DNA of 64,000 nt from Brooklawnia cerclae. GTDB lineage: Bacteria; Actinomycetota; Actinomycetes; Propionibacteriales; Propionibacteriaceae. The notes beneath the pieces were generated by a model. It ran no database searches. It was given only the letters and a program-made list of their open reading frames with translations, and was not told where the DNA came from. This document shows positions 488-20,374 of this stretch, one piece after another (position 1 is the stretch's first letter; every line of letters begins with the position of its first letter). Position numbers and translations under genes: made by a program. The DNA is taken from the NCBI RefSeq assembly GCF_011758645.1, contig NZ_JAAMOZ010000002.1, positions 1 to 64,000 of the forward strand. Reading direction: 5' to 3'.

Positions 488-1567
488 TCACTGCCCTCGG
501 GGTCCGGTGGACCCGCGGGGCACCAGCCGTGCCGGAAGCTGGAGATCGGTGACGACGGCGTCGTGGTCGCGAATCAGCCCGAGGAGCAGTTCGGTGGCGG
601 CCACGCCCAGCGCGTGGGTCGGCTGGTCGACGACGGTGATCGGCGGCGATACGACGGTCGTCCAGTTCTGATCGTCGAAGCCCACGAACGAGAAGCGCTC
701 GGGCAGGCGGATCCCGCGTTCGGCGACGGCCTGGAAGGCGCCGTAGGTCAGGACCGCGTCGGTGCAGTACACGGCTGTGAAGTCGAGTCCTTCGTCGAGC
801 GCTCGGCCGAACACCTTCGAGGCGGATGTCGCGGAGTACTCGGCGTGGATCACGAGGGAGTCGTCCACCACCAGTCCGCGCTCCTCGAAGGCCCGGGCGA
901 AACCGATCTGGCGTTGCTGGGACGGTCTCAAGGCCGTGTCGTCGGCTCCGGACGCGATGAGGTCCGCCGTCTGGACGCGGGCGGGGGCCTCGGTGATCAG
1001 TGCCACCCGCCGGTGTCCGAGATCCAGCAGGTGGCCGGCTGCGAGCCGGGACGCGCCCACGTGGTCGAGGCTGACCAGAGGCACGTGACCGAGCGCGGGC
1101 GTGCGCCGGTCGAGGAGGACGACCGGCGACCCCTCGGCCACCAGTCGCTCGATGGCACGCGGGTGTTCCTGGAAGACCGGGGCGATCACGAACCCGTCGA
1201 CCCGCTTCTCCGCGAGCACCTCGATCGACCGCTCCTCGACCGCGGCGTCGTTGTCGGTGTTGGTGAGCAGCACCTCGAAACCGTTGGCGCGGGCGGCATC
1301 GATGAGGCCCCGCATCACCGCGGAGAAATACGGGCTGGCAATGTCGGGTATCACGGCGGCGATCGTCATGCTGGCCCCCGATGCCATCGCCTTGGCAAGG
1401 GCGTTCGGGCGATATCCGAGTTTCTCGGCTGCGGTCAGAACTCTGCGCCGCGCCTCCTGGCTGGCCGATCCTCGTGAGGCCAGGACCCGCGCGGCGGTCG
1501 ACTTCGAGACCCCGGCCTCGCGGGCTATGTCGACCACCGTGATCGAGTGGCGTCGGGAGTGCGGCAA
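488..1567 (-). CDS. LacI-family repressor, probable regulator of the adjacent glycated-compound operons
   Basis: This is a 359-residue LacI/GalR repressor. The helix-turn-helix (ITVVDIAREAGVSKSTAARV) is at residues 9-28, followed by a hinge and a periplasmic-binding-protein-like effector domain to residue ~345. I chose the TTG at 1567 because AAGGA lies 8 nt upstream and the HTH then falls at the usual distance from the N terminus. The frame stays open further upstream with an ATG at 1678, but that would add about 37 non-conserved residues and run into an operator. Palindromes of the type TTGGGATCGTTCCCAA with a central CG, typical of LacI operators, occur upstream of this gene and of the frlB operon. 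Autoregulation and control of both operons is inferred. The effector is probably a substrate or phosphorylated intermediate of the pathway. Confidence 0.9.
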   Translation of the reverse strand: MPHSRRHSITVVDIAREAGVSKSTAARVLASRGSASQEARRRVLTAAEKLGYRPNALAKAMASGASMTIAAVIPDIASPYFSAVMRGLIDAARANGFEVLLTNTDNDAAVEERSIEVLAEKRVDGFVIAPVFQEHPRAIERLVAEGSPVVLLDRRTPALGHVPLVSLDHVGASRLAAGHLLDLGHRRVALITEAPARVQTADLIASGADDTALRPSQQRQIGFARAFEERGLVVDDSLVIHAEYSATSASKVFGRALDEGLDFTAVYCTDAVLTYGAFQAVAERGIRLPERFSFVGFDDQNWTTVVSPPITVVDQPTHALGVAATELLLGLIRDHDAVVTDLQLPARLVPRGSTGPRGQ

Positions 1568-1677
1568 AGAGGTGGTCCTTCCTCGGGGCCAGGACGGTGA
1601 CGAGCGACAGCGTAGCGGCGAAGCCAGTGCTCCCCGGCCGTGGTTTGTTACGACTGCGTCAATTCTGCCAGACGCCA

Positions 1678-1693
1678 TTGACACCGTTCCCAG
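1678..1693. promoter_or_regulatory. Weaker LacI-type operator
   Basis: TTGACACCGTTCCCAG matches the 16-mer TTGGGATCGTTCCCAA at 12 of 16 positions. It keeps the central CG and one perfect half site (CGTTCCCA). It overlaps the -35 box. Confidence 0.5.
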
Positions 1694-1721: not shown

Positions 1722-1737
1722 GTGGGATCGTTCCCAA
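1722..1737. promoter_or_regulatory. LacI-type operator
   Basis: GTGGGATCGTTCCCAA is an inverted repeat around a central CG (1729-1730) and differs at one base from the copy at 7953. Its centre is 44 bp from that of the weaker site, roughly four helical turns, which suits looping or cooperative binding of a tetramer or two dimers. Confidence 0.75.
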
Positions 1738-1896: not shown

Positions 1897-3462
1897 ATGC
1901 GGAGAGAACATGCGCCCTCGGCGCTGCGTGGTGCGCTGCACCGCGTGGTGGCGGTGGGCCTCGCGCTCGCGCTGAGCGCCGGTGCCGTCGCCTGTAGCGC
2001 GAACACGGGAGAAGACAGCACGACCGTCCTGACCTACGGTCTCGACAGTGACGTGCCCAACCTGCAGACCCTCAAGAACCAGGGCAGCGCGTCCATGATC
2101 CTCAACAGCGTGCTGCACCGTGGCCTGGTGCAGTACGACGCGGACGGAAACATCGTCCCTGCGCTGGCGGCCGAGGTATCGGACGTCGACAAGCAGGAAT
2201 ACACCTTCGTCCTTCACGAGGGGCTGACCTTCCACGACGGCAGCGCCCTCACCAGCGAGGACGTCAAGGCTTCGCTCGAAGCCATGGCTGATGCCGACAA
2301 CGTCGCCAAGATGTACCCGGCCGCCAAGAACATCGTCAGTATCGACACCCCCGACGACCTCACCACGATCGTGAAGCTGTCGGCTCCCGATGCGGCGTTC
2401 CTGTCCTACATGGCCGACGTCTCCGGGGCGATCCTGCCCTCCGAGAGCATCGGTCAGGAGGACCCGACGTACGTCGGCGCCGGCCCCTACAAGTTCGTCA
2501 GCTACGAGAACGGCTCGGAGTTCGTCGTCGAGAAGTTCGACGACTACTACGAAGAGGACAAGCCGTCGATCGACCGGATCGAGTTCAAGATCCTGTCCGA
2601 CCAGTCCGCGCGCGACAGCGCCCTGCTGAGCGGAAGCGTGGACGCGGTCTCGTTCGTCGGCTGGAACAACTACGACCAGGTCTCGGCGAACAGCAACCTC
2701 GTGCTGGACGAGACCGAGGGCCCGTTCATGTACCTGCTGTTCAACACCACGTCGGACAGCCCGTTCTCCAACCCGCTGGTGCGCCAGGCCGTCGCCTACG
2801 CGGTCGATCGCCAGGCCGTCGTCGACTCCGCTCTTGCGGGACGCGGCGAGCCGCTGTCGGGCATGCCGATCCCGGAGAGCAGCGAGTACTACAACGAGGA
2901 ACAGGCCAACTACTACACGCAGGACCTCGACAAGGCCAAGGAACTGCTGGCCGAGGCCGGCTACCCGAACGGTTTCACCGCGACGATGCTGTCCTCCTCG
3001 CAGTACGACTTCCATCAGAACACCGCGATCTCGGTGCAGGCCGACCTCAAGAAGATCGGGATCGAACTCGAGATGGTCATGCCCGACTGGCCCACGCGTC
3101 TGGAGATCGGCGCCGCCGGTGACTACGACATCGCCGTCTACGGCACTGTCGGGATCACCAACGACCCGTCGTTCCTCGATCAGCTGCTGACCCCGGCGGG
3201 TTCGCAGAACGCCCCGTTCGGTTACGACGACCCGACGGTGAACGACCTGCTCACCCGTGGACGGGCCGCGACCGACGAGACGGAGCGCAAGGCGATCTAC
3301 GACGAGCTGGGCGCCTACGTCCTGGAGAACGCCCCGATCGTCGGGCTGGCCTGGCGGTCGCAGGCCTACGGTTATGACAAGAAGGTGTCCGGGTTCAGCA
3401 ACATCCCGGGATTCCTCACCTTCGACTCCGGTTACACACTCGCGGACGCGACCATCGGTTGA
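1897..3462 (+). CDS. ABC importer substrate-binding lipoprotein, family 5 (dipeptide/oligopeptide type)
   Basis: This 521-residue extracytoplasmic binding protein begins with a lipoprotein signal peptide. A hydrophobic stretch ends in SAGAVAC with the lipid-modified cysteine at residue 33. The mature part has the layout of SBP_bac_5 proteins (DppA, OppA, NikA): an early LTYGLDSDVPNL segment, then TFHDGSALTSEDVKAS. The ATG has AAGGAGAG 6-7 nt upstream. It is first in an operon with two permeases, an epimerase-family enzyme and a double ATPase. A peptide-type binding protein, rather than a small amino-acid one, suggests a bulky substrate such as a glycated peptide or amino acid. This is inference from context. 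The LacI-type operators upstream suggest substrate induction. Confidence 0.93.
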   Translation: MRREHAPSALRGALHRVVAVGLALALSAGAVACSANTGEDSTTVLTYGLDSDVPNLQTLKNQGSASMILNSVLHRGLVQYDADGNIVPALAAEVSDVDKQEYTFVLHEGLTFHDGSALTSEDVKASLEAMADADNVAKMYPAAKNIVSIDTPDDLTTIVKLSAPDAAFLSYMADVSGAILPSESIGQEDPTYVGAGPYKFVSYENGSEFVVEKFDDYYEEDKPSIDRIEFKILSDQSARDSALLSGSVDAVSFVGWNNYDQVSANSNLVLDETEGPFMYLLFNTTSDSPFSNPLVRQAVAYAVDRQAVVDSALAGRGEPLSGMPIPESSEYYNEEQANYYTQDLDKAKELLAEAGYPNGFTATMLSSSQYDFHQNTAISVQADLKKIGIELEMVMPDWPTRLEIGAAGDYDIAVYGTVGITNDPSFLDQLLTPAGSQNAPFGYDDPTVNDLLTRGRAATDETERKAIYDELGAYVLENAPIVGLAWRSQAYGYDKKVSGFSNIPGFLTFDSGYTLADATIG

Positions 3463-3471
3463 TCGTCCGAG

Positions 3472-3512
3472 CGCTGCGCGGTGGGGCACTCCCGTCGTCC
3501 CACCGCGCAGCG
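3472..3512 (+). terminator. Strong intercistronic stem-loop after the binding-protein gene
   Basis: A perfect 14-bp stem (CGCTGCGCGGTGGG, 3472-3485, with its complement at 3499-3512) encloses a 13-nt loop, 9 nt after the stop codon. No U-tract follows and the operon continues. It probably acts as partial terminator or 3' mRNA stabiliser, keeping binding-protein levels above permease levels. Confidence 0.7.
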
Positions 3513-3556
3513 TCTATGTGACGGGTATCAGACGCAGGAGCAGGACAGGATCGATC

Positions 3557-4507
3557 ATGGTTCTCACCATCGCGAAACGGCTGGCAGCGGGCGTGGGTCT
3601 GCTGTTCGTGGTCGCGACCCTCATTTTCATCGCGCTGCACCTCGTTCCGGGTGATCCGGCGCGGACGATCCTCACGGGCACGGGGGCCGTCCCGACCGAC
3701 GCGGCCGTGGAGAACCTGCGCGAGCAACTCGGCCTGAACCTCCCGCTCGGCCAGCAGTACCTGCGCTACCTGCACGAACTGGTGACCGGGTCGCTGGGCA
3801 CCTCGCTCAACGACAATCGTCCGGTCATCGAACTGATCGGCGAAAGACTCCCGCGCACCCTCCAGCTCATCGGCTCCACGACGGTGGTCTCGGTGATCGT
3901 CGGTGTGACCATCGGTGCACTCGCGGCACGGCGCGGGGGTCTCATCGATCGTATCGTCATGGTGCTGACCTCCTTCGCCGTGGCTGTCCCGGCATACGTC
4001 GCCGCCGTGCTGTTGGTCTATTTCGTCGGGGTGAAGCTGCAGTGGCTGCCCAGCGGCGGCTACGTCGACCCGGCGGTCGACGTAGGACGTCACCTGCGGG
4101 CGCTCGTGCTCCCGACGATCTCGTTGTCGCTGGGATTCTCCGGCATCGTGGCGCGCATGACCCGATCGGCCGTGCTCAACGTCGGCAACCAGGACTGGGT
4201 GCGCACGGCGCTGTCCGTCGGGCTGACCCGGGGGCAGGTCTTCCGCCGTCACGTGCTACGCAACTCGCTGAGCCCCGTGGTGACGGTCACCAGCCTGCAG
4301 ATGGGTGGTCTGCTGGGCGGCACGGTGATCATCGAGCGGGTGTTCAGCTGGCCCGGCTTGTCGGGCCTGCTCATCGACGGCGTCACCAGCCGTAACTATC
4401 CGGTGGTGCAGGGCATCGTGATCCTCATCGCCGCTCTGTTCATCCTGCTCAACATCGTGGTCGACATCGTGTACGGCCTGCTCGATCCACGAGGGAGGTC
4501 GAAGTGA
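3557..4507 (+). CDS. ABC importer permease, DppB type
   Basis: This 316-residue inner-membrane permease starts with the DppB/OppB pattern: one transmembrane helix, then the extracytoplasmic segment LVPGDPARTIL and the EQLGLNLPLGQQYLRYL region. Five more helices follow. The EAA-like coupling loop, AVLNVGNQDWVRTALSVGL, lies at about residues 201-219. The ATG is preceded by AGGAGCAGGACAGGA. The stop codon overlaps the GTG of the next permease (GTGA), so the two are translationally coupled and should form the heterodimeric channel with it. Confidence 0.95.
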   Translation: MVLTIAKRLAAGVGLLFVVATLIFIALHLVPGDPARTILTGTGAVPTDAAVENLREQLGLNLPLGQQYLRYLHELVTGSLGTSLNDNRPVIELIGERLPRTLQLIGSTTVVSVIVGVTIGALAARRGGLIDRIVMVLTSFAVAVPAYVAAVLLVYFVGVKLQWLPSGGYVDPAVDVGRHLRALVLPTISLSLGFSGIVARMTRSAVLNVGNQDWVRTALSVGLTRGQVFRRHVLRNSLSPVVTVTSLQMGGLLGGTVIIERVFSWPGLSGLLIDGVTSRNYPVVQGIVILIAALFILLNIVVDIVYGLLDPRGRSK

Positions 4508-5424
4508 AGCAAGGGTTGCGCGCGTTCTGGCGCGAGTTCCGGTCACCCGGCACCGCGGCCGCGGGGATCTTCCTGGCGCTGCTGATCCTGATGGCGATCT
4601 TCGCAGGCCTGGTGGCGCCCTACGATCCCGTCGCGCAGAGCGACGTCCGGCTGGCCCCTCCCGGATCGGGGCACCTGCTGGGCACCGACCAGTTCGGCAG
4701 GGACATCCTGTCGCGGCTCCTCATCGGCGGCCGGGTCGACCTGACGGTGTCGTTCGGGGCGTCCCTGCTGGCCATGTGCATCGGCGTATTGCTGGGGCTC
4801 GCGGGCGGGACGGCCCGCAGCTTTCTCGGAGGGCTTGCCATGCGGGCGGTCGAGGTGGTGCTGGCGTTCCCGCCGATCGTGCTGGCGCTGCTCGTCGTCA
4901 CGCTGTTCGGGCAGGGCGAGCTGACCCTCGTGGTCACGATGGGCGTCCTGTTCGCCCCCGCCTTCGCGCGCATCGTCTACGGCGAGGTGCTCACGGTGAG
5001 GTCGCTGGAGTACGTGCAGGCCAGCACGGCGATCGGGACGCCGAGGTCGCGGATCGTCTTCGGCGTGATCCTCCCGGCCGTCTACCCGCCGATCCTCGTC
5101 CAGCTGTCGCTCACGCTCGCCTCGGCGATGCTGCTGTCGTCCGGCCTGAGCTACCTGGGGCTGGGAACCGTGCCACCCACACCCTCGTGGGGCGGCATGA
5201 TCGCCGAAGGACAAGCGCTGATGATGACCTCCCCGCTCCTGCTCCTGGTGAGCAGCGGCGTCGTCGTGGCCACCATCCTGTCCTTCTCCGTGCTGGCGGA
5301 CGCCTTGGAGAAGGCCCTCGACCCGAGGCGCCGGAAGAGCCGGGTGGAGCTCACCCCGGCCACCGTCACCCCGACGTTCGGGGGACCGTCCGAGCCGGAT
5401 CCATCAACGCAGGGGGCAGCATGA
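4504..5424 (+). CDS. ABC importer permease, DppC type
   Basis: This is the 306-residue partner permease. Features typical of DppC/OppC are visible: a cytoplasmic N-terminal segment, a first helix, then APPGSGHLLGTDQFGRDILSR, which is a signature of the OppC_N domain. The BPD_transp_1 core follows, with the coupling loop near LEYVQASTAIGTPRSRI. The GTG start overlaps the previous stop by 4 nt, and its own TGA overlaps the ATG of the epimerase-family gene. A proline- and threonine-rich tail of about 25 residues follows the last helix. Confidence 0.95.
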   Translation: MKQGLRAFWREFRSPGTAAAGIFLALLILMAIFAGLVAPYDPVAQSDVRLAPPGSGHLLGTDQFGRDILSRLLIGGRVDLTVSFGASLLAMCIGVLLGLAGGTARSFLGGLAMRAVEVVLAFPPIVLALLVVTLFGQGELTLVVTMGVLFAPAFARIVYGEVLTVRSLEYVQASTAIGTPRSRIVFGVILPAVYPPILVQLSLTLASAMLLSSGLSYLGLGTVPPTPSWGGMIAEGQALMMTSPLLLLVSSGVVVATILSFSVLADALEKALDPRRRKSRVELTPATVTPTFGGPSEPDPSTQGAA

Positions 5425-6269
5425 AATACGGTGCGCATTCGCAGATGTTCGTGGACGACATCGCCGAGGACCCGGCAGGGGTCTTCCGGCTGGTGGCGAG
5501 CTACGGGCTGGACGCGGTGGAGGTGCACGTAGCTCGTGCCGAGGACTTCCCGGCCGATGCGGTGGCCGAGGCGGCCGCCGAGACGGGTCTCGACGTCGTC
5601 CTCGGGACGGCGCTCGGCGCGGACCGTTCGACCATCTCGGACGATCCCGAGGTGCGCGCACGTGGGATCGCACATCTCGAGGGTTGCATCCGGATCGCCG
5701 AGAAGGTGGGTGCGCGGAAGATCGCCGGCGGTATCCACTCGGCCAACGGTGTGTTCGTGGGTCGTGGACGTACCGACGAGGAGTGGAACCGCTCGATCGA
5801 GGCCCTGAGGACCGTGGCGCCGAAGGCGGAGGCGGCCGGTGTGCTGCTCACCGTCGAACCGGTCAGCCGCTACTCCGGGTACTTCCTCAACACCGCCGCC
5901 GACGCGATCGCGCTGGTGGAGGCCGTCGGTTCGTCCAGCGTCAAGGTGCAGTTGGACACCTACCACATGAACATCGAGGAGGCCGATCCGGCCGCGGCGA
6001 TCAGGGCGACCGGGGGCCTGCTCGGTCATTTTCACGCCGTGGAGAACAACAGAGGCGTCCCCGGCACCGGGCAGGTGCCCTGGGCGGCCGTGTTCGCGGC
6101 GCTCGCCGACATCGGCTACGACGACCTGATGGTGTACGAACACTTCCCACTCGACCTGCCGAGGATGGCGGTGCGGACGCACACGTGGCGGCACCTGGCG
6201 ACCTCGCGCGAGGTCTGCATCGACGGCACGGCGAACCTGAAGGCGGTGGCGAATGGCTCCGGAGAGTGA
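5421..6269 (+). CDS. Sugar 3-epimerase family TIM-barrel enzyme (D-tagatose/D-psicose 3-epimerase or FrlC type)
   Basis: This 282-residue TIM-barrel protein resembles Pseudomonas cichorii D-tagatose 3-epimerase closely through the active site. The metal ligands are all present: E146, D179 (VKVQLDTYHMNIEE), H205 (GHFHAVENNRG) and E240. Their spacing equals E152/D185/H211/E246 of that enzyme with a constant offset of six. It sits inside an importer operon next to FrlB/FrlD homologues. In E. coli the comparable enzyme FrlC interconverts psicoselysine and fructoselysine, so an epimerase that brings ketosyl-amines to the fructosyl form is the natural reading. A free ketose epimerase is also possible. 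The start ATG overlaps the previous gene (ATGA) with AGGGGGC just upstream. The 3' end overlaps the ATPase gene by 17 nt. Confidence 0.85.
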   Translation: MKYGAHSQMFVDDIAEDPAGVFRLVASYGLDAVEVHVARAEDFPADAVAEAAAETGLDVVLGTALGADRSTISDDPEVRARGIAHLEGCIRIAEKVGARKIAGGIHSANGVFVGRGRTDEEWNRSIEALRTVAPKAEAAGVLLTVEPVSRYSGYFLNTAADAIALVEAVGSSSVKVQLDTYHMNIEEADPAAAIRATGGLLGHFHAVENNRGVPGTGQVPWAAVFAALADIGYDDLMVYEHFPLDLPRMAVRTHTWRHLATSREVCIDGTANLKAVANGSGE

Positions 6270-7944
6270 CGGACCGCTGCTGCGGGTCGCGGGGCTGACA
6301 GTAGGCTTCGGCGAGCCCTCCGCCCCGGTGGTCGACGATCTGCACTTCGACGTGACCACGGGTGAGACGGTCGCGCTGGTCGGGGAATCCGGCTCCGGCA
6401 AGACCATGACCGCGATGTCGGTGCTCGGTCTGCTGCCCCCGACGGCCACGGTCACCGGTTCTGTGCGGTTGGCCGGCAAGGAGGTCATCGGTGCACCGGA
6501 GGACCAGCTGAGGGCGATCCGCGGGCGGAGCGCCGCGATGATCTTCCAGGAGCCGATGACGGCCTTCAACCCCGTCTACACCGTCGGCAGGCAGATCGTC
6601 GACGCCCTGCGGGCCAGGGAGCGCATCTCGCGGGCCGAGGCCATGAACCGTGCCGTCGACCTGCTGCGGCGGGTCGGGATCCCCGAGCCGGAGCGGCGGG
6701 CGAAGAGCTATCCGCACGAACTGTCGGGCGGGCAGCGGCAGCGGGCGATGATCGCCCTGGCGATCTCGGGGAACCCGTCCCTGTTGATCGCCGATGAGCC
6801 CACCACCGCCCTCGACGTCACGGTCCAGGCGGAGATCCTCGCGCTGATGAAGGGTCTTCAGCGCGATCTCGGCATGGCGATCCTGCTGATCACCCACGAC
6901 ATGGGAGTGGTCGCCGAGATGGCCGACCGCGTCGTGGTGATGAAGGACGGGATCGGCGTCGAGCAGGCCGATGTCTTCGAGCTGTTCGAAGCGCCCCGGA
7001 ACGACTACACCCGCGCCCTGCTGGAGGCCGTTCCGCGACCGGGTGTGGGTGGCAGGCTGCACCGCCTGTCGGTCGGCGAGCCCGCACGCGCCGAGGGTGA
7101 GGACGAGTCGCCGGCCCTCGAGGTCTCCCACCTCAGCGTCCGTTATCCGGGCAAGTTCCTCTCGCCGGGCTTCCTGGCCGTCAACGATGTGTCGCTGACG
7201 ATCCCCCGCGGGCAGGTGCTGGGCCTGGTGGGTGAGTCGGGATCGGGGAAGTCGACGATCGGCAAGACGATCGCCGGGCTGCTGCGTCCCGAATCGGGAA
7301 CCGTCACCGTGGCGGGCAAGGACGCCCTGGTCTCCAGCGAGAGCAGGCTGCGGGAGATCCGCCGGAACTACGGCATGGTCTTCCAGGATCCGGCGTCCTC
7401 GCTCAATCCCCGCAACTCCATCGGGCAGAGCATCGCCGAGCCGTTGCTGGTGCACGCCAGGTCGCTGACCGCGTCCCAACGGCAGGCCAGGGTCAACGAA
7501 CTCCTCGAACAGGTGGAGTTGCCGGTCGCCTGGCACGTCCGGTTCCCGCACGAGCTGTCCGGGGGCCAGCGCCAGCGGGTCGGCATCGCGCGGGCGCTGG
7601 CCGCCAACCCGCACCTGTTGATCGCGGACGAGCCGACGAGCGCCCTCGACGTGTCGGTGCAGGCCGCCGTCCTGGAACTGTTCCAGCGTCTTCAGCGCGA
7701 CCTGGGCTTCTCCTGTCTGTTCATCAGCCACGACCTGGCCGTCGTGGAGATCCTGGCCGACCGCGTGGCGGTGCTGGCCGACGGCGCGCTGGTGGAGGAG
7801 GGCGACGCGGAGCAGGTGCTGCGCTCGCCGGTCACCGATTACACCAAGAGGCTCATCGCTGCGGCACCCGTGCCCGATCCCCGAGTCCAACGGGCTCGGG
7901 CCGCGGCCCGGATCGAGACGGAGGCCGCAGCTCTCACGTCCTGA
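6253..7944 (+). CDS. Fused double ATPase of the ABC importer (DppD-DppF in one chain)
   Basis: This 563-residue protein joins two complete ABC domains, which in dipeptide importers are usually separate DppD and DppF subunits. Walker A motifs GESGSGKT (residues 44-51) and GESGSGKS (327-334) are present. So are two LSGGQRQR signatures (near 157 and 435), each followed by a Walker B ([13 protein letters not shown] and [13 protein letters not shown]) and a switch histidine. The protein should power the two permeases above. The fused form is common in actinobacteria and proteobacteria (GsiA/YliA type). The gene starts inside the 3' end of the epimerase gene and closes the operon, just before the frlB promoter and operators. 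Confidence 0.95.
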
Positions 7945-7952
7945 TACAACCA

Positions 7953-7968
7953 TTGGGATCGTTCCCAA
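7953..7968. promoter_or_regulatory. LacI-type operator O1 of the frlB operon
   Basis: TTGGGATCGTTCCCAA is a 16-bp inverted repeat around a central CG, broken only at the two positions flanking the centre. It is nearly identical to the site at 1722 and overlaps the proposed -35 box. Confidence 0.8.
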
Positions 7969-7990
7969 ACGCTGGTCGAACCAGTATTGT
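7962..7990 (+). promoter_or_regulatory. Predicted promoter of the frlB-frlD-hyuA-hyuB operon
   Basis: TTCCCA (7962-7967) and TATTGT (7985-7990) are separated by 17 nt. Both elements fall in or beside LacI-type operators, so repressor binding would exclude polymerase. The spacer itself contains CTGGT-CGA-ACCAG (7972-7984), a second small inverted repeat of unknown meaning. Confidence 0.6.
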
Positions 7991-8005
7991 TGGGAACGGT
8001 CTCAC
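7990..8005. promoter_or_regulatory. LacI-type operator O2 of the frlB operon
   Basis: TTGGGAACGGTCTCAC has one perfect half site (TTGGGA) and the central CG. Its centre is 37 bp from that of O1. It covers the likely transcription start. Confidence 0.65.
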
Positions 8006-8047
8006 ACCCCAGTCGACACCATCTCCCGAAAGGCACAAGGCAGCATC

Positions 8048-9067
8048 ATGACCGATCTGATCGAAGTCCCTGACGACTTCGAAGCTTCGATCCAGCACGC
8101 CCTCGACCAGGACGACGCCGCTCGCGCGATCGTGGCCACCGCATTGGACAAGGGCCTGGAGCGGGTCTACCTCGTGGGCTGTGGTGGTTCGCACTTCGGC
8201 ACCTACCCCGCGTTCGACCTCCTCGACCGGAACACCACGGCATTCGCGACCCAGCGGATCTCCAGCGCCGAACTCACCTCCCGCGCACCCGCCGGCCTGA
8301 ACGAGCACGCGTTGGTGATCGCCGCCTCGCATTCGGGCAATACCCCGGAGACTGCGGACGCGGCGGAGTTCGCCCGTACGCGGGGCGCGACCGTGGTGGC
8401 CATCGCTCGCGAGGGCGACTCGCGGCTGGCCCGTGCCGGGCACGTCCACCTGGACTATCCGAACACCATCACCATCACCGAGCCCAAGCTCGTCCACAAC
8501 GAGCAGTTGGCGCTGGCCCTGCTCGAGGGAGTCGGCGCCGGTGAGAAGGCCGCCCTCCTGCGTCCGAGCCTCGCGGCGCTGCCCGCGGCGCTGCGCGCGG
8601 TGAAGGACGAGATCGCCGCAACCGGTGAACGGGTGGCCGACGTGGTGGCCGACGCCCCGCTCAGCTACATCGTGGCGGGTGGAGCCGCCTACGGCATGGC
8701 CAAGATGATGGCCTGGTGCTACTTCCAGGAGATGCAGTGGATGAACGCCGCGGCCATCAACGGCGGTGACTTCTTCCACGGCCCGCTGGAGATGATCGGC
8801 CCCGACACCCCGCTGGTGGTGCTCCAGGCCGAGGACGACGCACGTGCGCTGGGCGAACGTGTCGTCCGTTTCGGGGAGCAGTACACGTCCCAGTTGGCGG
8901 TGATCGACACCGCCGGCCTCACGCTGCCCGGCATCGACCCGCAGGCGCGGCCCGATCTCAGCGTGCTCGCGCTCATGAGCGCGGAGCGCCGGGTGCTCGA
9001 TCATGTGGCGGCCCGGCGTGGCCACGACACATCCGTTCGCCGTTACATGTACAAGGTTCAGTATTGA
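8048..9067 (+). CDS. frlB: SIS-domain fructosamine-6-phosphate deglycase, FrlB type
   Basis: This 339-residue protein has two SIS (phosphosugar-binding) domains. The first contains VGCGGSHFGTYP and SHSGNTPET. The second carries the FrlB/AgaS-type motif GGDFFHGPLEM with H244. The C terminus, SVRRYMYKVQY, matches the pattern of E. coli FrlB (ERRYYGGLVEY), where terminal residues reach the neighbouring active site. Known FrlB enzymes convert fructoselysine 6-phosphate, or related fructosamine 6-phosphates, to glucose 6-phosphate and the free amine. The gene directly precedes an FrlD-type kinase. Together with the kinase it forms the canonical two-step Amadori pathway in the cytoplasm. The amino-acid part of the substrate cannot be read from sequence. 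Confidence 0.88.
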   Translation: MTDLIEVPDDFEASIQHALDQDDAARAIVATALDKGLERVYLVGCGGSHFGTYPAFDLLDRNTTAFATQRISSAELTSRAPAGLNEHALVIAASHSGNTPETADAAEFARTRGATVVAIAREGDSRLARAGHVHLDYPNTITITEPKLVHNEQLALALLEGVGAGEKAALLRPSLAALPAALRAVKDEIAATGERVADVVADAPLSYIVAGGAAYGMAKMMAWCYFQEMQWMNAAAINGGDFFHGPLEMIGPDTPLVVLQAEDDARALGERVVRFGEQYTSQLAVIDTAGLTLPGIDPQARPDLSVLALMSAERRVLDHVAARRGHDTSVRRYMYKVQY

Positions 9068-9068
9068 G

Positions 9069-9920
9069 ATGAGGTTGTTGGGAGCAGGCGACAATGTCGT
9101 TGATCGCTATCGAAGCCTCGGGCGATACTTCCCGGGCGGCAACGCGGTCAACGTGGCGGTCTTCGCCGCCCGGCAGGGCGCGGCGAGCGCCTACCTGGGT
9201 GTGGTCGGGGACGACGAGGCCGGCAAGCACGTTCTGGCCGCACTGGATGCCGAGCGGGTGGACACGAGCCATGTGCGGGTTGTCCACGGGCCGAACGCCA
9301 CGGCCGATGTCGACCTGGTCGGCAACGATCGGGTCTTCGTGGGTTCCGACCGTGGCGTGGCGATGTTCACCCCGGATGCCCGGCAGCTCGACGTCATGGC
9401 CGGATATGACGTGGTCCATTGCGGCTACGCCTCCGCGATGCTGGCCAGCGTCCCCGACCTCGTTCAGCACACCAAGGTCTCCTATGATTTCGCCAACCGG
9501 TTCGTGGCCGATGACATCGTCCGCCACGCCGGTGGCCTGTATCTCGCGGCTTTCTCGGCGGGGCACCTGCCTTCCGACGAGGCCCTGCGGCTGGTTGAGC
9601 GTGCCACGGCAGCCGGCGCTCGCTACGTTCTCGCCACCCGGGGCGCCGCCGGCGCCTATCTCGCCGGGCCGCACGGCGTGACGTTCGCCGCTGCGGAACC
9701 GATCAAGGCCGTCGACACCCTGGGTGCCGGTGACGCGTTCATCGCCACCGTGCTCGTTCGCCTGTTCGCGGGCGATCCACCCGGGGTCGCGACGACCGCC
9801 GCGAGCCACGTCGCGGCCCAGGTCTGCCTCGACTACGGTGCCTTCGGCCACGGTGCCGCCTATTCTCCGGACGACGCGACGACCACATCCGTCTCCACTA
9901 CGAAAGGAGCAGCCTCATGA
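9069..9920 (+). CDS. frlD: PfkB-family fructosamine kinase, FrlD type
   Basis: This 283-residue ribokinase-fold kinase starts one base after the frlB stop. The N terminus (AGDNVVDRY, then GGNAVNVAVFAARQG) and the NDRVF segment are shared with E. coli fructoselysine kinase FrlD. The PfkB signature DTLGAGDAF carries the catalytic base D222. Known members phosphorylate O6 of fructoselysine or fructosyl amino acids to make the FrlB substrate. An in-frame ATG at 9003 would overlap frlB by 65 nt and give a non-homologous extension, so I use 9069. The 3' end overlaps hyuA (ATGA). Confidence 0.9.
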   Translation: MRLLGAGDNVVDRYRSLGRYFPGGNAVNVAVFAARQGAASAYLGVVGDDEAGKHVLAALDAERVDTSHVRVVHGPNATADVDLVGNDRVFVGSDRGVAMFTPDARQLDVMAGYDVVHCGYASAMLASVPDLVQHTKVSYDFANRFVADDIVRHAGGLYLAAFSAGHLPSDEALRLVERATAAGARYVLATRGAAGAYLAGPHGVTFAAAEPIKAVDTLGAGDAFIATVLVRLFAGDPPGVATTAASHVAAQVCLDYGAFGHGAAYSPDDATTTSVSTTKGAAS

Positions 9921-12019
9921 GCCTGCGCATCGGCGTGGACACGGGGGGAACCTTCACCGACGTGTGCGCCTTCGATGAGCAGACCGGGCGTCTGCACGTC
10001 CGCAAGGTCTCCAGCACGCCCGCCGACCCCGGCATGGCCATCCTCCAGGGGGTGGCCGAGATCCTCGACCAGATCGGGGACCGCCGGATCGGTGAGGTCT
10101 CCTACTTCGCCCACGGCACCACGGTCGGCACGAACGCGCTGCTCACCGGCGGAGGCGTGCGCACCGGCCTGATCACCACTCGCGGCTTCCGCGACCTGCT
10201 CGAACTCGGGCGGGGCCGTCGTCCCTCCATGTACGACATCCAGGTCGACAAGCCCGAGCCCTTCGTCCCCCGGCATCTGCGCCTGGAGGTCACCGAGCGC
10301 GTCCGGCACACCGGGGCGATCGAGACCCCGCTGGACGAGAACGACGTCCGCGTGGCCGTGCGCGCTCTGAAGGACGCGGGCGTCGAGTCCGTGGCCGTCT
10401 GCCTGCTGTACAGCTACCTCGTGGACGACCACGAGAAGCGCATCGCCGAGATCATCGCCGAGGAGTTCGGGGATGCCTATGTGTCACTGTCGAGCGAGGT
10501 GCTGCCGGAGTTCCGGGAGTACGAGCGGCTGTCCACGGTGGTCACGAACGCCTACGTCGGCCCCGTCGTCTTCCGCTACCTCGTGCGGCTGCGCGAGAAG
10601 CTCGCCGAAGCGGGGCTCAAGGCGGTGCCGCACGTCACGCAGAGCAACGGTGGTGTCATCCCGTTCCAGACCGCGGAGCAGATGCCCGTGCGGCTGATCC
10701 TGTCCGGCCCGAGCACCGGCGTGGTGGGGGCGGCGCAGATCTGCCAGGCGGCGGGCTTCGGCGACATCATCACCTTCGACATGGGTGGCACCAGTTCGGA
10801 CGTCTCGCTCGTCCAGGACGGCAAGCCCAAGGTCACCTCGGGCATGGAACTCGACAACCGCCCGATCCGTTCCCCGATGCTCGACATCCACACCGTGGGC
10901 GCCGGCGGCGGCTCGCTGGGGTGGATCGACAGCGGCGGCCATCTGCGCGTCGGCCCGCAGAGCGCCGGAGCCATGCCCGGCCCGGCCTGCTACGGCAACG
11001 GCGGCGAGGCCACCGTGACCGATGCGAACGTGGTGCTGCGGATGCTCAACCCGGAATACCTGCTCAACGGGCAGATGAAGATCGACCGGGAGCTCTCGGT
11101 GGCGGCCGTCGACAGGCTCGGCGGGCAGCTCGGCCTCAGCGCCGAACAGGCCGCGCTGGGCATCCTGCGCGTGGTCACGGCAAACATGGCCCGCGCGATC
11201 CGGGTGGTCTCGGTGCAGCGCGGTTACGACCCCCGCGACTACGCCCTGGTGCCGTTCGGCGGGGCGGGCCCGCTGCACGCGTCCCGGCTCGCCCGTGAAC
11301 TCGGCATGACCACCGTCGTCGTGCCGGAGATCCCGGGTGCGCAGTCGGCGCTCGGCCTGCTGATGACCGACGTGAAGACCGACTTCATGAAGACCCAGAT
11401 CGTCGGGCTGGACGCCGCGCACGTGTCCGAGATCGAGGCCGCCTTCGCGGTGCTCGACGAGCAGGCCGCGGAGTGGTTCGCCGAGGAAGGCGTCTCGTCC
11501 GAGGGACGCTCGGCCGTTCGCCGCATCGAGCTGCGCTACGCCGGGCAGAACTTCGAACTCCCGGTCGAACTGCCGGAGGGTCTGCTGGTGCCCGTCGAGC
11601 TCCCGTCCGGCCTGGAACTGTCGGACGAGGCGATCGGCTGGATCACCGAGGCGTTCCACGTCGCGCACGAGCGCGTCTACGGCTATCGCTCCCCCGAGTC
11701 GCCGATCGAGGCGGTCACCTTCCGCCTGGAGGCCCACGGAACGGCCCCGCAGGTCGGCCTGCACACGTACGAGGCCGCCGGTCCCGACGCGAGTTCGGCG
11801 GTCATCGGGACGCGCGAGACATGTTTCGACGCCGATGCCGGCTATCAGCGGATCGACGTCTACGACCGGGCGCTGCTGCGTCCGGGGAACACGATCAGCG
11901 GGCCCGCGATCGTGGAACAGATGGACACCACCACCGTCCTGCTGCCCGGCGACACCCTGGTGGTGGACGAGTGGAAGAACCTGATCATCCGGATCGAGGA
12001 CGGTATCAATGAGCTCTGA
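9917..12019 (+). CDS. hyuA: ATP-dependent hydantoinase/5-oxoprolinase, subunit A
   Basis: This 700-residue subunit belongs to the hydantoinase A/oxoprolinase family. It has the actin/HSP70-like nucleotide-binding fold: phosphate-1 motif GVDTGGTFTDV (residues 6-16), HGTTVGTNALL, then DMGGTSSDV and GAGGGSLGW. The C-terminal acetophenone-carboxylase-like domain is present. Family members use ATP to open cyclic imides or lactams (5-oxoproline, N-methylhydantoin) or to carboxylate ketones. It pairs with subunit B, which overlaps it by 11 nt. Its position behind frlBD and under the same operators implies a substrate released from, or attached to, a glycated compound. That link is inference. Confidence 0.9.
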   Translation: MSLRIGVDTGGTFTDVCAFDEQTGRLHVRKVSSTPADPGMAILQGVAEILDQIGDRRIGEVSYFAHGTTVGTNALLTGGGVRTGLITTRGFRDLLELGRGRRPSMYDIQVDKPEPFVPRHLRLEVTERVRHTGAIETPLDENDVRVAVRALKDAGVESVAVCLLYSYLVDDHEKRIAEIIAEEFGDAYVSLSSEVLPEFREYERLSTVVTNAYVGPVVFRYLVRLREKLAEAGLKAVPHVTQSNGGVIPFQTAEQMPVRLILSGPSTGVVGAAQICQAAGFGDIITFDMGGTSSDVSLVQDGKPKVTSGMELDNRPIRSPMLDIHTVGAGGGSLGWIDSGGHLRVGPQSAGAMPGPACYGNGGEATVTDANVVLRMLNPEYLLNGQMKIDRELSVAAVDRLGGQLGLSAEQAALGILRVVTANMARAIRVVSVQRGYDPRDYALVPFGGAGPLHASRLARELGMTTVVVPEIPGAQSALGLLMTDVKTDFMKTQIVGLDAAHVSEIEAAFAVLDEQAAEWFAEEGVSSEGRSAVRRIELRYAGQNFELPVELPEGLLVPVELPSGLELSDEAIGWITEAFHVAHERVYGYRSPESPIEAVTFRLEAHGTAPQVGLHTYEAAGPDASSAVIGTRETCFDADAGYQRIDVYDRALLRPGNTISGPAIVEQMDTTTVLLPGDTLVVDEWKNLIIRIEDGINEL

Positions 12020-13679
12020 CAACGCAGAGGCCCGGCAGGTGGCCCAGGATCCCGTCCTCGTCGAGGTCATCGGCTCAGCGCTGTCGACCATCGTCGAGGA
12101 GATGAGCGAGACCCTGGTCAAGGCCGCGTTCTCGCCCAACATCAAGGAGCGGCGCGACTGCACGGCGAGCCTCTTCGACGCCGCCGGCCAGGCGATCGCC
12201 CAGGACGAGGGCGGATCCCCGCTCCACCTGGGGTCGCTGATGGGCATCGTCGGGGCGATCCGCAGCCGGTTCGGCGAGGCCGACATCCGGCCCGGCGACG
12301 TCTTCATCGGCAACGATCCCTACTCCGGCGGCGGTTCGCACCTGCCCGACATCGTCCTGGCCTCCCCGATCTTCGTCGAGGGCGAACTCACGGCCTGGGC
12401 GGCCGCCCTGGCCCACCACGCGGACTTCGGCGACCGGGGCCACGCCCACATCTACCAGGAGGCCATCCGCATCCCACCCGTGCACCTCGTGCGGGAAGGC
12501 GTCATGCAGGACGAACTGCTCGCCCTGATCCTGCTGAACTGCCAGATCCCCGAGGAGCGGAAGGCCGATCTCCGCGCCCAGCAGGCCGCACTGCGGGTGG
12601 CCATCACCCGCTACACCGAGCTGTGCGGGCGGTACGGGGCCGACCGGATGCGGGCCGTCGGGCAGGAACTGCTCGACTACACCGAGCGACGCACCCGCGC
12701 GGCGATCGCCGCGTTCCCCGACGGTGAGTACACCTTCAGCGACAAGTTCGACTGCCCCGAGCTGGACGACGAGCTGACGCTGCGGGTGCGCATCGTGGTG
12801 GACGGCGACGAGATGCTGTTCGACTTCGCCGGAAACCCACCGCAGGTGCGCGCGAGCGTCAACGTGGTCTGGTCGGGTCTGTATGCGGCCGTCTACTACA
12901 CGGTGAAGACGATGATCGACCCCGACATCAACCCGAACGCGGGGTTGTACCGGCCGATCCGCATCGAGGCGCCGAAGGGCTCGATCCTCAACAGCGTCGA
13001 GCCCGCTGCCGTGAACGGCCGTAGTGAGACCTGCCAGCGGGTGGTCGACCTGATCACCGGCGCGCTGGCGCCCGCGGTGCCCGAGCGGGTGACGGCGGCG
13101 TCCAACGGCGCCAACACGGGCGTCCACTTCTCGGGGCACGACTCGGCACGCGACCGCGACTTCGTCTACCTGGAGACCATCGGGGGAGGCTCCGGTGCCC
13201 GGTTCGACAAGGATGGGCTCGACGGCGTCCAGGTGCACATGACGAACACCTCGAACCTGCCGGTCGAGAGCCTTGAGGCCGAGTATCCCCTTGTCGTGGA
13301 GGCATACGAGTTGCTGGACGACTCGGGTGGCATCGGCGAGCACCGGGGTGGCCTCGGAATCCGCAGGAAGGTGCGGGTGGAGGCCGACGACGTGCACTTC
13401 TGGCTCGACACCAGTCGGCTGCGCTCGCGGCCCTGGGGACTGTTCGGCGGCGGGGAAGGCGACTCGGCACGCTGTGTGCTCAGCGAGGACGCCCGGCCGA
13501 TCGACCACGGGTACACCGTGTTGCAGCCCGGGCAGACCGCCTCGATCGAGACGGCCGGGGCCGGTGGCTACGGTTCCCCGGCGAAGCGCCCGCCCGAGTC
13601 GGTCGACCAGGACCTGCGCGAGGGCAGGATCTCGGCCGAGACCGCCGAGCAGTACCGGGAACTCCGCGAGAAGGGCTGA
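12009..13679 (+). CDS. hyuB: ATP-dependent hydantoinase/5-oxoprolinase, subunit B
   Basis: This 556-residue protein matches the hydantoinase B/oxoprolinase family. Visible hallmarks are the N-terminal DPVLVEVIGSALSTIVEEM, the segment FSPNIKERRDCTASLFDA, GDVFIGNDPYSGGGSHLPDI, HADFGDRG, and the late ETIGGGSGAR and VHMTNTSNLPVE. The last two are typical of this subunit. It should form the catalytic complex with HyuA. The protein is full length. It is the last gene of the operon, and a repeat array followed by a strong hairpin lies behind it. Confidence 0.92.
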   Translation: MSSDNAEARQVAQDPVLVEVIGSALSTIVEEMSETLVKAAFSPNIKERRDCTASLFDAAGQAIAQDEGGSPLHLGSLMGIVGAIRSRFGEADIRPGDVFIGNDPYSGGGSHLPDIVLASPIFVEGELTAWAAALAHHADFGDRGHAHIYQEAIRIPPVHLVREGVMQDELLALILLNCQIPEERKADLRAQQAALRVAITRYTELCGRYGADRMRAVGQELLDYTERRTRAAIAAFPDGEYTFSDKFDCPELDDELTLRVRIVVDGDEMLFDFAGNPPQVRASVNVVWSGLYAAVYYTVKTMIDPDINPNAGLYRPIRIEAPKGSILNSVEPAAVNGRSETCQRVVDLITGALAPAVPERVTAASNGANTGVHFSGHDSARDRDFVYLETIGGGSGARFDKDGLDGVQVHMTNTSNLPVESLEAEYPLVVEAYELLDDSGGIGEHRGGLGIRRKVRVEADDVHFWLDTSRLRSRPWGLFGGGEGDSARCVLSEDARPIDHGYTVLQPGQTASIETAGAGGYGSPAKRPPESVDQDLREGRISAETAEQYRELREKG

Positions 13680-13691
13680 GCGCTCAGCGGT

Positions 13692-13849
13692 CGTTTCGAC
13701 AGGCTCAACGATCGTTTCGACGGGCTCAACGGGCGTTTCGACGGGCGTTTCGACAAGCTCAACGGGCGTTTCGACAGGCTCAACGGGCGTTTCGACAGGC
13801 TCAACGGGCGTTTCGGCGGGTGGCGGCGATCGTTTCGACAGGCTCAACG
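13692..13849. repeat. Array of 19-bp direct repeats (CGTTTCGACAGGCTCAACG)
   Basis: Six full copies start at 13692, 13713, 13746, 13767, 13788 and 13831, with partial copies near 13734 and 13809. They differ only at one position (CGACAGG, CGACGGG or CGACAAG). Copies are mostly 21 bp apart. The complementary core TTGAGCTTGTCGAAA recurs in the two hairpins just downstream. This is a local expansion of an intergenic repeat family, not a CRISPR array, because there are no unique spacers of constant length. Confidence 0.85.
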
Positions 13850-13863
13850 AGCGTCTCGCTCCC

Positions 13864-13888
13864 GGTCCTTGAGCTTGTCGAAAGGACC
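13864..13888. repeat. Palindromic copy of the same repeat family
   Basis: GGTCCTT (13864-13870) and AAGGACC (13882-13888) flank GAGCTTGTCGA. The same hairpin core recurs 61 bp further on, within the terminator. Confidence 0.75.
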
Positions 13889-13917
13889 TCGACATGGGTG
13901 AGCCCGGCGAACTCCTC

Positions 13918-13956
13918 GGGTCTCGGTCCTTGAGCTTGTCGAAAGGACCGAGACCC
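13918..13956. terminator. Bidirectional hairpin between hyuB and the E1-like gene
   Basis: A perfect 14-bp stem (GGGTCTCGGTCCTT with its complement at 13943-13956) has an 11-nt loop and ends at the stop codon of the convergent gene. It can serve both strands as a terminator. Confidence 0.7.
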
Positions 13957-16302: not shown

Positions 16303-16418
16303 GTCCACCTCCGTTGGCGCGCGGTCGAAGCTGCCAACAATCTAGCCCGTGACGTGGTGCGACGAGATGCCGCCCCGGTCGGGAGATAGTTCCTGAGAAC
16401 TCCCGGAATAGTTGACGT

Positions 16419-18855: not shown

Positions 18856-19434
18856 ATGAACGCCGAGGTGGTGACATACCTGGACCGATTGCGCGAGATC
18901 GCCTTGGATCAGCACGGGTACGTGACCTCCGCACAGGCGCTTGTGGAGGATGTGCCCCGCGCGGAGCTGTCGAAGATGGTCAGTCGCGGTCGGTTGGACC
19001 GCGTGGCCCATGGGGTCTACCAGGTTCCGCAGGTCACAGGGTCTCGGTTCGCCCCATACATGTTGGCCGTGTTGTGGACAGGTGCGCCCGAGGCGTGCCT
19101 GTCACACGAGACCGCCCTTCAGGCCTGGGATATCAGCGACATAAACCCTGACCGCATCCACGTTGCGGTCGCCAAGAGACGGCGCATCAAACGGCAGGGC
19201 GGTGACGGATACGTGATCCACCACTGCGATCTCGCGCCGGAACAGGTGACATGGTGGGAGCGGATCCCGATCACGGACGTACCCACGACCATCTGCCAGT
19301 GCATCGACTGGGGCGTGCCCACCTATCTGATCAAGCAGGCGCTGGAGCGAGCCGGACGCACGAGCCTGTTACACGCGGACGAGCGGAGACACCTTGCCTC
19401 ACGATTGGATGACCGCGACTATGGCAGACGATGA
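18856..19434 (+). CDS. abiEi: AbiEi-family antitoxin, type IV toxin-antitoxin system
   Basis: This 192-residue protein has the AbiEi architecture. A winged-helix N-terminal domain begins YLDRLREIALDQHGYVTSAQALVEDVPRAELSKMVSRGRLDRVAHGVYQ, and an antitoxin C-terminal domain with SHETALQAWDISDINP follows. Members repress their own promoter and counter the partner nucleotidyltransferase without binding it. The start follows from the leaderless promoter. The 3' end overlaps abiEii by about 14 nt. AT content of the promoter is clearly higher than in the neighbouring genes, and the pair lies between direct repeats, which supports acquisition by transfer. Confidence 0.88.
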   Translation: MNAEVVTYLDRLREIALDQHGYVTSAQALVEDVPRAELSKMVSRGRLDRVAHGVYQVPQVTGSRFAPYMLAVLWTGAPEACLSHETALQAWDISDINPDRIHVAVAKRRRIKRQGGDGYVIHHCDLAPEQVTWWERIPITDVPTTICQCIDWGVPTYLIKQALERAGRTSLLHADERRHLASRLDDRDYGRR

Positions 19435-20374
19435 ACGCCCGCTCAACCTGTCAGCGGCGCTGAGCAGCCTGCCGCCCAAGACAAGAGCCCCGAACTCGGC
19501 GAGAGTGCTGGATGCCTGGATCACGCAGGCGGAGACCAAACTTGGCAGCACACGAGGGCGTCTGGGCTGGCTCGTCGCCTCGACCGTCGTGACCTCAGCA
19601 TTGCAACAGGCTGTGGATGATCAGGGACACCCGTTGTTCCTGCTCAAAGGCGGAACACTTCTTCAGCATCGTCTGCCGGGTTCGAGAGCGACGACCGATC
19701 TCGACGGATTGGCGCGTGGCAGCATCGAGTCCTTCCTGGATGCATTCGACGAGGTGTCGCGCCACCCGTGGGGACCGTTAACGCTGAGACGCGACCCGGT
19801 CGAGATCATCGATGTACCGGGCAAACTCGTCAAGCCCCGTCGGTTCGATGTGGTCGTCATGTTCAACGGTGTGACGTGGCGCCGCATCCAGGTCGAGGTG
19901 TCTCCTGACGAGGGCAGCGCAGGCATTGTCGGTGAGAGTGTGCCCGCGCCGGCGTTGGGAGCTGTCGGGTTACCAGCTCCTGACCATCTGGTGGGTTTGG
20001 CGATGCGTTACCAGATCGCACAGAAGGTTCATGCAGCGACGGATCCGCACATGCCCCCCGAGTACGTCAACGACCGGGCCCGCGACGCGGTCGACCTGCT
20101 TCTGCTGCGCGACCTCGCCAACGAGAGCGGGCACCCTTCGATGGCAGGTATCAGGGCTGCGATCGAAGATATTTTCGGCGTACGTGCTGCGGAGGCTGCG
20201 GCAACGGGGTGCCTGTCGCGCAGCTGGCCCGCCAGGCTCGTCGCCTACGCGCACTGGCACACTTCGTACCGGAGGGCTGCAGAATCGGCAGGCGTCACGC
20301 TCACTCTCGAAGAGGCCGTCGCTGAAGTGAACCTCTGGCTTGACAGTGTTGACCGGGCAATGGATGACTGCTGA
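19421..20374 (+). CDS. abiEii: AbiEii-family nucleotidyltransferase toxin
   Basis: This ~317-residue toxin has the DNA polymerase beta-like nucleotidyltransferase motif of AbiEii: FLLKGGTLLQHRLPGSRATTDLDG, with the metal-binding aspartates in TTDLDG. The later KVHAATDPHMPPEYVNDRARDAVDLLLL is also typical of the family. Known members, for example MenT, add nucleotides to tRNA or other targets and block growth or phage replication. Starts at 19409 or 19394 are possible in the same frame. I use the ATG at 19421, which follows GGATGACC. The gene overlaps the antitoxin gene. Together they form an innate phage-defence or addiction module. Confidence 0.88.
   Translation: MADDERPLNLSAALSSLPPKTRAPNSARVLDAWITQAETKLGSTRGRLGWLVASTVVTSALQQAVDDQGHPLFLLKGGTLLQHRLPGSRATTDLDGLARGSIESFLDAFDEVSRHPWGPLTLRRDPVEIIDVPGKLVKPRRFDVVVMFNGVTWRRIQVEVSPDEGSAGIVGESVPAPALGAVGLPAPDHLVGLAMRYQIAQKVHAATDPHMPPEYVNDRARDAVDLLLLRDLANESGHPSMAGIRAAIEDIFGVRAAEAAATGCLSRSWPARLVAYAHWHTSYRRAAESAGVTLTLEEAVAEVNLWLDSVDRAMDDC

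Follow-up and report, generated by a model that had tools for sequence, protein, structure and literature searches.

The window considered here comprises bases 1–64000 of contig 2 of the 3.79 Mb genome of Brooklawnia cerclae. In its first 16 kilobases (kb), where G+C lies at ~67–71%, we identified two co-oriented and adjoining units: one at 1897–7944, encoding an ATP-binding cassette (ABC) importer and a ketose 3-epimerase, and one at 8048–13679, encoding a FrlB-like deglycase, a FrlD-like kinase and the HyuA and HyuB subunits of a predicted ATP-dependent lactamase. The union of an Amadori kinase/deglycase pair with an ATP-dependent lactamase is genuine and conserved. We consider it probable that, under LacI control, the locus catabolizes a lactam bearing a fructosyl group on its nitrogen, N-(1-deoxyfructosyl)-pyroglutamate being the likeliest candidate.

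The first unit opens with an AgaA-like solute-binding protein (1897..3462; Pfam SBP_bac_5), followed by ABC permeases of the DppB/OppB type (3557..4507, the start being approximate; BPD_transp_1) and the DppC/OppC type (4504..5424; BPD_transp_1 and OppC_N), a TIM-barrel ketose 3-epimerase of the psicose/L-ribulose 3-epimerase family (5421..6269; AP_endonuc_2) and the fused double ATPase of the importer (6253..7944; two ABC_tran stretches). In the second unit, the deglycase (8048..9067; SIS domain) and the kinase (9069..9920; PfkB) precede HyuA (9917..12019; Hydantoinase_A), the predicted ATP-binding subunit of the lactamase, and HyuB (12009..13679; Hydantoinase_B), its predicted metal-containing hydrolytic subunit. 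All of these genes lie on the forward strand, and every gene named in a preliminary description of the locus was recovered in frame at its place, in two adjacent operons. As frlB, frlD, hyuA and hyuB overlap or almost abut their neighbors, hyuAB is expected to be transcribed together with frlBD. A LacI-family regulator gene with an uncertain start codon (488..1570 on the reverse strand, the end at ~1570 being approximate; Pfam LacI and Peripla_BP_3) diverges from the importer operon and lies just outside the stretch that the description had covered.

The side-by-side arrangement of a PfkB kinase and a SIS-domain deglycase is that of a FrlB/FrlD-type pathway. The best PDB match of the predicted fructosamine-6-phosphate deglycase is 3eua (165 bits), and the best NCBIfam model for the predicted fructosamine 6-kinase is fructoselysine 6-kinase, with the motif GAGDAF at residue 219. 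Among the FrlB sequences compared, E228 is found in 15/15 and H244 in 13/15, the B. cerclae protein having both of these residues, which we take to be catalytic; the two remaining sequences, from genome G074 (L031) and Embleya, have Gln in place of the histidine. In PDB entry 9otu, the aligned Glu, presumably the catalytic residue and present in 9otj, is replaced by Ala, as one would expect if a catalytic residue had been mutated. The scores against the curated NCBIfam equivalogs of the E. coli fructoselysine pathway were far below the cut-offs (105 of 430 bits for FrlB, 152 of 247 for FrlD and 35 of 305 for the epimerase), and for this reason we did not assign the locus to the E. coli type of fructoselysine pathway. 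The epimerase has L-ribulose 3-epimerase 3vyl as its best PDB match and reached 183.6 bits against NF051856, below the cut-off of 300. Its residues E146, D179, H205 and E240 are spaced 33/26/35, which we take to be the ligand spacing of the ketose 3-epimerase family, and the four metal ligands previously ascribed to the enzyme are indeed present.

Conservation of the linkage and shared control

Relatives of the locus were collected by a search with FrlB alone, not with HyuAB. The search gave 10 related loci at 55–78% identity and three more, from the same order, at 53–62%. In 13/13 loci with a FrlB at least 53% identical (L017–L029; L017 and G157 were treated as one genome and counted once), frlB, frlD, hyuA and hyuB follow each other in the same order, the hyuB of L026 matching in two pieces. 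These loci come from Aeromicrobium, five Microbacterium, Nesterenkonia, Flaviflexus, metagenome-assembled genomes of Propionibacterium (L025) and of Solirubrobacterales, and genomes G101, G186 and G255. Such consistency indicates that the linkage is not accidental, and it answers the question, raised with the preliminary description, of whether hyuAB would be absent from homologous neighborhoods. A HyuA search of 293 genomes of the order, in which at most three candidates were scored per genome, gave matches at E ≤ 1e-150 in 35 genomes. Among the 36 matches listed, five were 66–100% identical, the B. cerclae gene included, and at each of these five only a kinase gene separates the HyuA gene from the frlB upstream of it; the remaining 31 were 41–44% identical, one of them in genome G052.

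In G052 (L030:9423–18471), we observed a second assembly of the same chemistries. There, frlB and frlD (35% and 40% identity) lie ahead of an ABC ATPase gene, a permease-like reading frame lying within a 718-amino-acid frame and a sugar-type receptor gene, after which come hyuA and hyuB (41% and 37%) and a glyoxalase-like gene. The gene make-up suggests a ribose-type importer, and the HyuA falls outside the set of frl-linked and Ti-plasmid-type sequences in the HyuA tree, on a long branch placed only approximately. The meeting of the same chemistries, here with a divergent HyuAB and a different importer, points to functional need instead of hitch-hiking. The epimerase is found in 6/14 frl loci, B. 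cerclae included, and is not in the stretches of L021, L025, L027, L028 and L029; the sequences of L020, L023 and L026 end too early to show either presence or absence. Being present in only some relatives, the epimerase is probably accessory.

Palindromes near TTGGGA(A/T)CG(A/T)TCCCAA precede both units. A TTGGGAACG-type pattern with at most two mismatches gave 7 strand matches in the window versus 0.52 expected in shuffles, six of the seven falling at four positions within the two promoters and the last being a lone two-mismatch stray at 56817. In the whole genome, the stricter TTGGGAWCGWTCCCAA with at most one mismatch was found only at 1722 and 7953, with two other places at two mismatches. 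The probable operators are located at 1678..1693 and 1722..1737 (a palindrome) in the importer promoter and at 7953..7968 (a perfect palindrome) and 7990..8005 in the frlB promoter. All four come from the pattern scan and agree with the relatives, the first by the same paired layout, and those at 1722 and 7953 also come from the whole-genome scan. We scanned 14 loci in this way (B. cerclae, L017–L025, L027–L029 and L030, with L026 left out) and found paired sites 34–45 base pairs apart before both units in eight of them (B. cerclae, L017–L020 and L022–L024). In L021, only frlB is preceded by a pair of sites; L027 and L029 each show a single weak site before frlB, and L025, L028 and L030 have no site there, the upstream sequence of L025 and L028 being short. 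The first site of each pair starts with TTGACA in the seven relatives with both pairs and may thus include a −35-like hexamer; promoter and terminator scans of the window gave no sigma-70 pair at either promoter. Homologues of the LacI gene, at 44–60% identity, were seen in 12/13 close loci and none in the L029 stretch. In line with the shared operators described earlier, the operator-like palindromes before both units make it very likely that a single repressor governs them.

The lactamase, the importer and the Ti-plasmid agropinic-acid region

HyuA contains DTGGTFTD and DMGGT as phosphate motifs and GAMPGP as the adenosine motif, and the CapB metal ligands D50, H111, D114 and H136 are kept in HyuB in all 13 of the 14 frl rows that were counted; together, these features place the pair in the ATP-dependent lactamase family. 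The same HyuA-type ATP motifs have been described for CapA, and Tyr136 of CapB has been proposed as the acid/base catalyst (PMC8453981). The column of CapB Tyr136 holds His in 13/13 frl, 4/4 aga and 1/1 Ketogulonicigenium rows and in 0/25 others. As alignment gaps flank the column, we regard the histidine as a lead, not proof, and common descent alone could explain it. The vicinal cysteines of CapB are not kept in the frl, aga and Ketogulonicigenium rows, and several CapB pocket positions carry different residues in HyuB. The HyuB column counts include L018 and L024 and leave out L044, which repeats L039, and L026, whose HyuB is in two pieces; the background rows absent from them are L064 and L069 (short match), L070 (stop inside the frame) and L071 (no match at E ≤ 1e-20). 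Against the NCBIfam caprolactamase models, with cut-offs of 1000 bits each, HyuA scored 592 and HyuB 259 bits.

In a midpoint-rooted HyuA tree of 48 rows, without the Ti copy L044 as its HyuAB repeats that of L039, the 14 frl-linked rows, B. cerclae included, formed one group (100/100). This group was joined (99/99) with four aga-type rows (the Ti plasmids L038, L039 and L068, and Paracoccus versutus L042) and one Ketogulonicigenium row, so that the B. cerclae HyuA stands in a group neighboring the aga rows and not within the aga group. The Ketogulonicigenium vulgare HyuAB (L040:9983–13679), a member of this tumor-inducing (Ti) plasmid-type group, has a peroxidase-related gene and an esterase gene as neighbors, no sugar kinase or deglycase being annotated in 22 kb, and may represent a third role for lactamases of this group.

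The importer shows a similar kinship. The best PDB match of the B. cerclae receptor is AgaA (6hlx) with 387 bits, the next reaching 174, and the receptor gene product of Ti plasmid L039 is AgaA itself (6hlx, 1097 bits over residues 25–509). The receptors found in 12 relatives all score higher to AgaA than to the second Ti receptor; L026, whose sequence ends before a receptor gene, is not in the comparison. We take AgaA to be the agropinic-acid receptor, and the title of a 2019 study by Marty et al. speaks of agropinic acid opine import. The system had been described as a peptide-type importer, which is right as to family, but its closest solved relative is an opine receptor and not a peptide receptor, and we rejected a plain peptide importer on this ground. 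Identity to the Ti region is 41% for the receptor, 43% for each permease (one to the permease beside AgaA, the other to the second Ti-plasmid permease), 46% and 48% for the ATPase against two fused Ti-region ATPases, 52% for HyuA, 54% for HyuB and 34% for a LacI-type gene nearby. On three Ti plasmids, HyuAB follows a flavin adenine dinucleotide (FAD)-binding oxidoreductase and lies near an importer made of a receptor, permeases and a fused ATPase. Agropinic acid is N-(1-deoxymannityl)-pyroglutamate, a lactam, and Lyi, Jafri and Winans are said to have proposed in 1999 that agaF and agaG turn it into mannopinic acid.

Proposed pathway and rival explanations

From the gene content, conserved linkage, operator-like sites, kinship with the agropinic-acid module and catalytic residues, all of them computed, we infer the reactions, their order and the substrate. 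The AgaA-like importer would take up N-(1-deoxyfructosyl)-pyroglutamate, the cyclized Amadori product of glutamine. HyuA would then activate the lactam with ATP, and the metal site of HyuB would hydrolyze it to fructosyl-glutamate. FrlD would phosphorylate the sugar at C6, before or after ring opening, and FrlB would cleave the phosphorylated fructosyl-glutamate to glucose 6-phosphate and glutamate, while the epimerase would let 3-epimeric (psicosyl-type) substrates enter the pathway as well. Catalysis by a FrlB-type deglycase should proceed through an imine and hence call for an amine nitrogen; as the nitrogen of a lactam is an amide and cannot form an imine, ring opening should precede FrlB. 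This reverses the order given in the preliminary description, in which the sugar leaves first and HyuAB then opens the ring. Its proposal of a glycated cyclic lactam, with fructosyl-pyroglutamate as the best guess, fared better: the AgaA-like receptor and the grouping of HyuA with the AgaA-linked Ti HyuA favor an N-substituted pyroglutamate, and the common HyuB residues agree with this, the hydantoin or imidazolone products also put forward being less favored. Amadori products derived from glutamine cyclize to fructosyl-pyroglutamate. This compound has been reported in buckwheat honey (PMC12114437). The FrlB and FrlD of B. subtilis favor alpha-glycated amino acids (PMC12632257), which fits the need of a route via fructosyl-glutamate.

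The same pathway logic would hold for another ring, namely a fructosylated hydantoin, imide or lactam (e.g., of glycated creatinine type or succinamopine-lactam type) opened before FrlD and FrlB act. N-methylhydantoinase 7hk5 is the best match of both HyuA and HyuB among solved structures, and a published proposal has HyuAB-type pairs opening the lactams of succinamopine and succinopine (PMC6733357). Given that the AgaA-like receptor and the grouping of HyuA with the AgaA-linked Ti pair both point to an N-substituted pyroglutamate, we judge a different ring unlikely. Improbable, too, is a HyuAB that is simply a 5-oxoprolinase for free pyroglutamate, alongside a conventional fructosamine pathway: such a role would suit the family name and the ATP-dependent lactam chemistry, but the apparent co-transcription with frlBD, the clade-specific pairing (in a HyuA tree without a verified bacterial 5-oxoprolinase) and the AgaA-like receptor argue against it, and a sugar on the lactam nitrogen would still block FrlB. 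We see very little chance that agropinic or mannopinic acid itself is the substrate and the locus an opine pathway, despite the resemblance of the importer and HyuAB to the Ti-plasmid aga region. FrlB/FrlD-type enzymes act on ketosamines, not on mannityl amines, and a Pfam scan found no FAD-binding oxidoreductase domain, which adjoins HyuAB on the Ti plasmids, among ten B. cerclae products; as this enzyme is missing, we did not class the locus as an agropinic-acid pathway. Finally, HyuA-type genes are common (54/396 phylum genomes at E ≤ 1e-150), but a chance position of hyuAB was rejected as next to inconceivable in view of the 13/13 linkage, the placement of all close HyuA matches one kinase gene downstream of FrlB and the recurrence of the pairing, with a diverged HyuAB, in G052.

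Several observations weigh against the catabolism of an N-fructosylated lactam. The system is rare, a FrlB at E ≤ 1e-50 being found in 1/396 sampled phylum genomes, that of B. cerclae. FrlB homologues below 40% identity lack hyuAB in L031–L037, L043 and L072–L074, and among homologues so distant hyuAB is joined with frlBD only in L030; in the Ti-plasmid stretches L041 and L044, the frl-type and hyuAB pairs are in separate units. The operator-like sites are weak or not found in L025 and L027–L030. The Ti-plasmid record carries no aga gene names, and the function of its HyuAB depends on a presumed identity with agaF/agaG. FrlB is not nearer to the Ti deglycase (33% identity) than to those of Embleya and Klebsiella (40% each). 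HyuA scores 530 bits to N-methylhydantoinase and 406 to caprolactamase, and other lactams or hydantoins would fit too; the His column of HyuB sits between alignment gaps; and the B. cerclae genome has two further HyuA-type genes, so that a general oxoprolinase could lie elsewhere.

The surroundings of the two units contain further features. Directly 3′ of hyuB, at 13682–13944, an array of TTTCGACA(A/G)GCTCAA has six direct copies, one of them with a mismatch, and two inverted ones, where none is expected by chance; this TTTCGACA-type array is perhaps a repeat element that terminates transcription between hyuB and the convergent gene beyond it. The latter (13957–16308, reverse strand) encodes a transketolase or pyruvate-dehydrogenase-E1-like protein (Pfam Transketolase_N, PDH_E1_M and Transketolase_C_1). 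An AbiEi-type antitoxin and an AbiEii-type nucleotidyltransferase, a pair of the type IV toxin–antitoxin kind, are found at 18856–20374.

Comparison with known systems

With CapAB and N-methylhydantoinase, the B. cerclae HyuAB shares the family of ATP-dependent lactam hydrolysis, the ATP motifs and the metal ligands; it differs from CapAB at several CapB pocket positions and in scoring below the caprolactamase cut-offs. The likeness to the Ti agropinic-acid region (NC_002377, 77313–87913) extends over the AgaA-type receptor, the fused-ATPase importer, the HyuA/HyuB pair and the LacI-type gene. There, a FAD oxidoreductase stands beside HyuAB, whereas B. cerclae has a kinase and a deglycase, and the sugar part is mannityl in the Ti system and would be fructosyl in B. 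cerclae.

The two Ti-plasmid genes that we take to be the kinase and SIS-domain deglycase of the moc (mannopine) region of Ti and opine plasmids are 41% and 33% identical, respectively, to the B. cerclae pair. For comparison, FrlD is 44% identical to the Embleya kinase, 38% to that of Klebsiella and 33% to both Pantoea frlD and the Enterococcus kinase. The moc region handles an open-chain substrate and has no HyuAB in its unit; in B. cerclae, HyuAB is in the unit and the proposed substrate is a lactam. In the mannopine catabolism encoded by an opine plasmid, the intermediate formed first is deoxyfructosyl-glutamine (PMC6341043). On Ti plasmid NC_002377 (L044:8087–27914), a FrlD/FrlB-like pair and HyuAB lie ~14 kb apart in separate units, and in B. 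cerclae they form one unit.

In the Salmonella fra system for fructose-asparagine, where FraE is an asparaginase, the amide is processed before the kinase and deglycase act, analogous to a lactam opening that comes first in B. cerclae. FraE is described as periplasmic and discussed with other periplasmic asparaginases, and FraD and FraB were measured on F-Asp and 6-P-F-Asp (PMC4941530); the active-site residues of FraB were not found in PMC9609667. More generally, the frl and fra pathways (B. subtilis frlBONMD, E. coli frl and Salmonella fra) share with B. cerclae a kinase and a SIS-domain deglycase leading to glucose 6-phosphate, but they use other importers, and the available parts of the sources describe no lactamase in them (PMC12632257, PMC4941530), whereas B. 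cerclae has HyuAB.

It is not obvious how the known frl and fra routes could act on a sugar attached to a lactam nitrogen, and a dedicated lactam opening would explain how bacteria recycle such compounds. The literature searched, mostly by title and in few subscription journals, contained no pathway joining fructosamine or Amadori enzymes with a hydantoinase/oxoprolinase, which agrees with the preliminary description; lactam opening by HyuAB-type enzymes has, however, already been proposed in opine catabolism (PMC6733357). Every module is known, and the combination and the likely substrate appear new. The proposed route gives a testable specificity to a HyuAB clade annotated merely as hydantoinase/oxoprolinase, and it ties the glycation chemistry of food and plant litter to opine catabolism on Ti plasmids. 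We find the arguments about evenly balanced for a broader reading, according to which this would be the first recognized pathway for a cyclized (lactam) Amadori product, put together in Actinomycetota on at least two occasions out of an ATP-dependent lactamase and a fructosamine kinase with its deglycase. As its receptor and lactamase would share ancestry with the Ti agropinic-acid module, the catabolism of crown-gall opines may be related to an ordinary pathway for glycated plant material undergoing decay.

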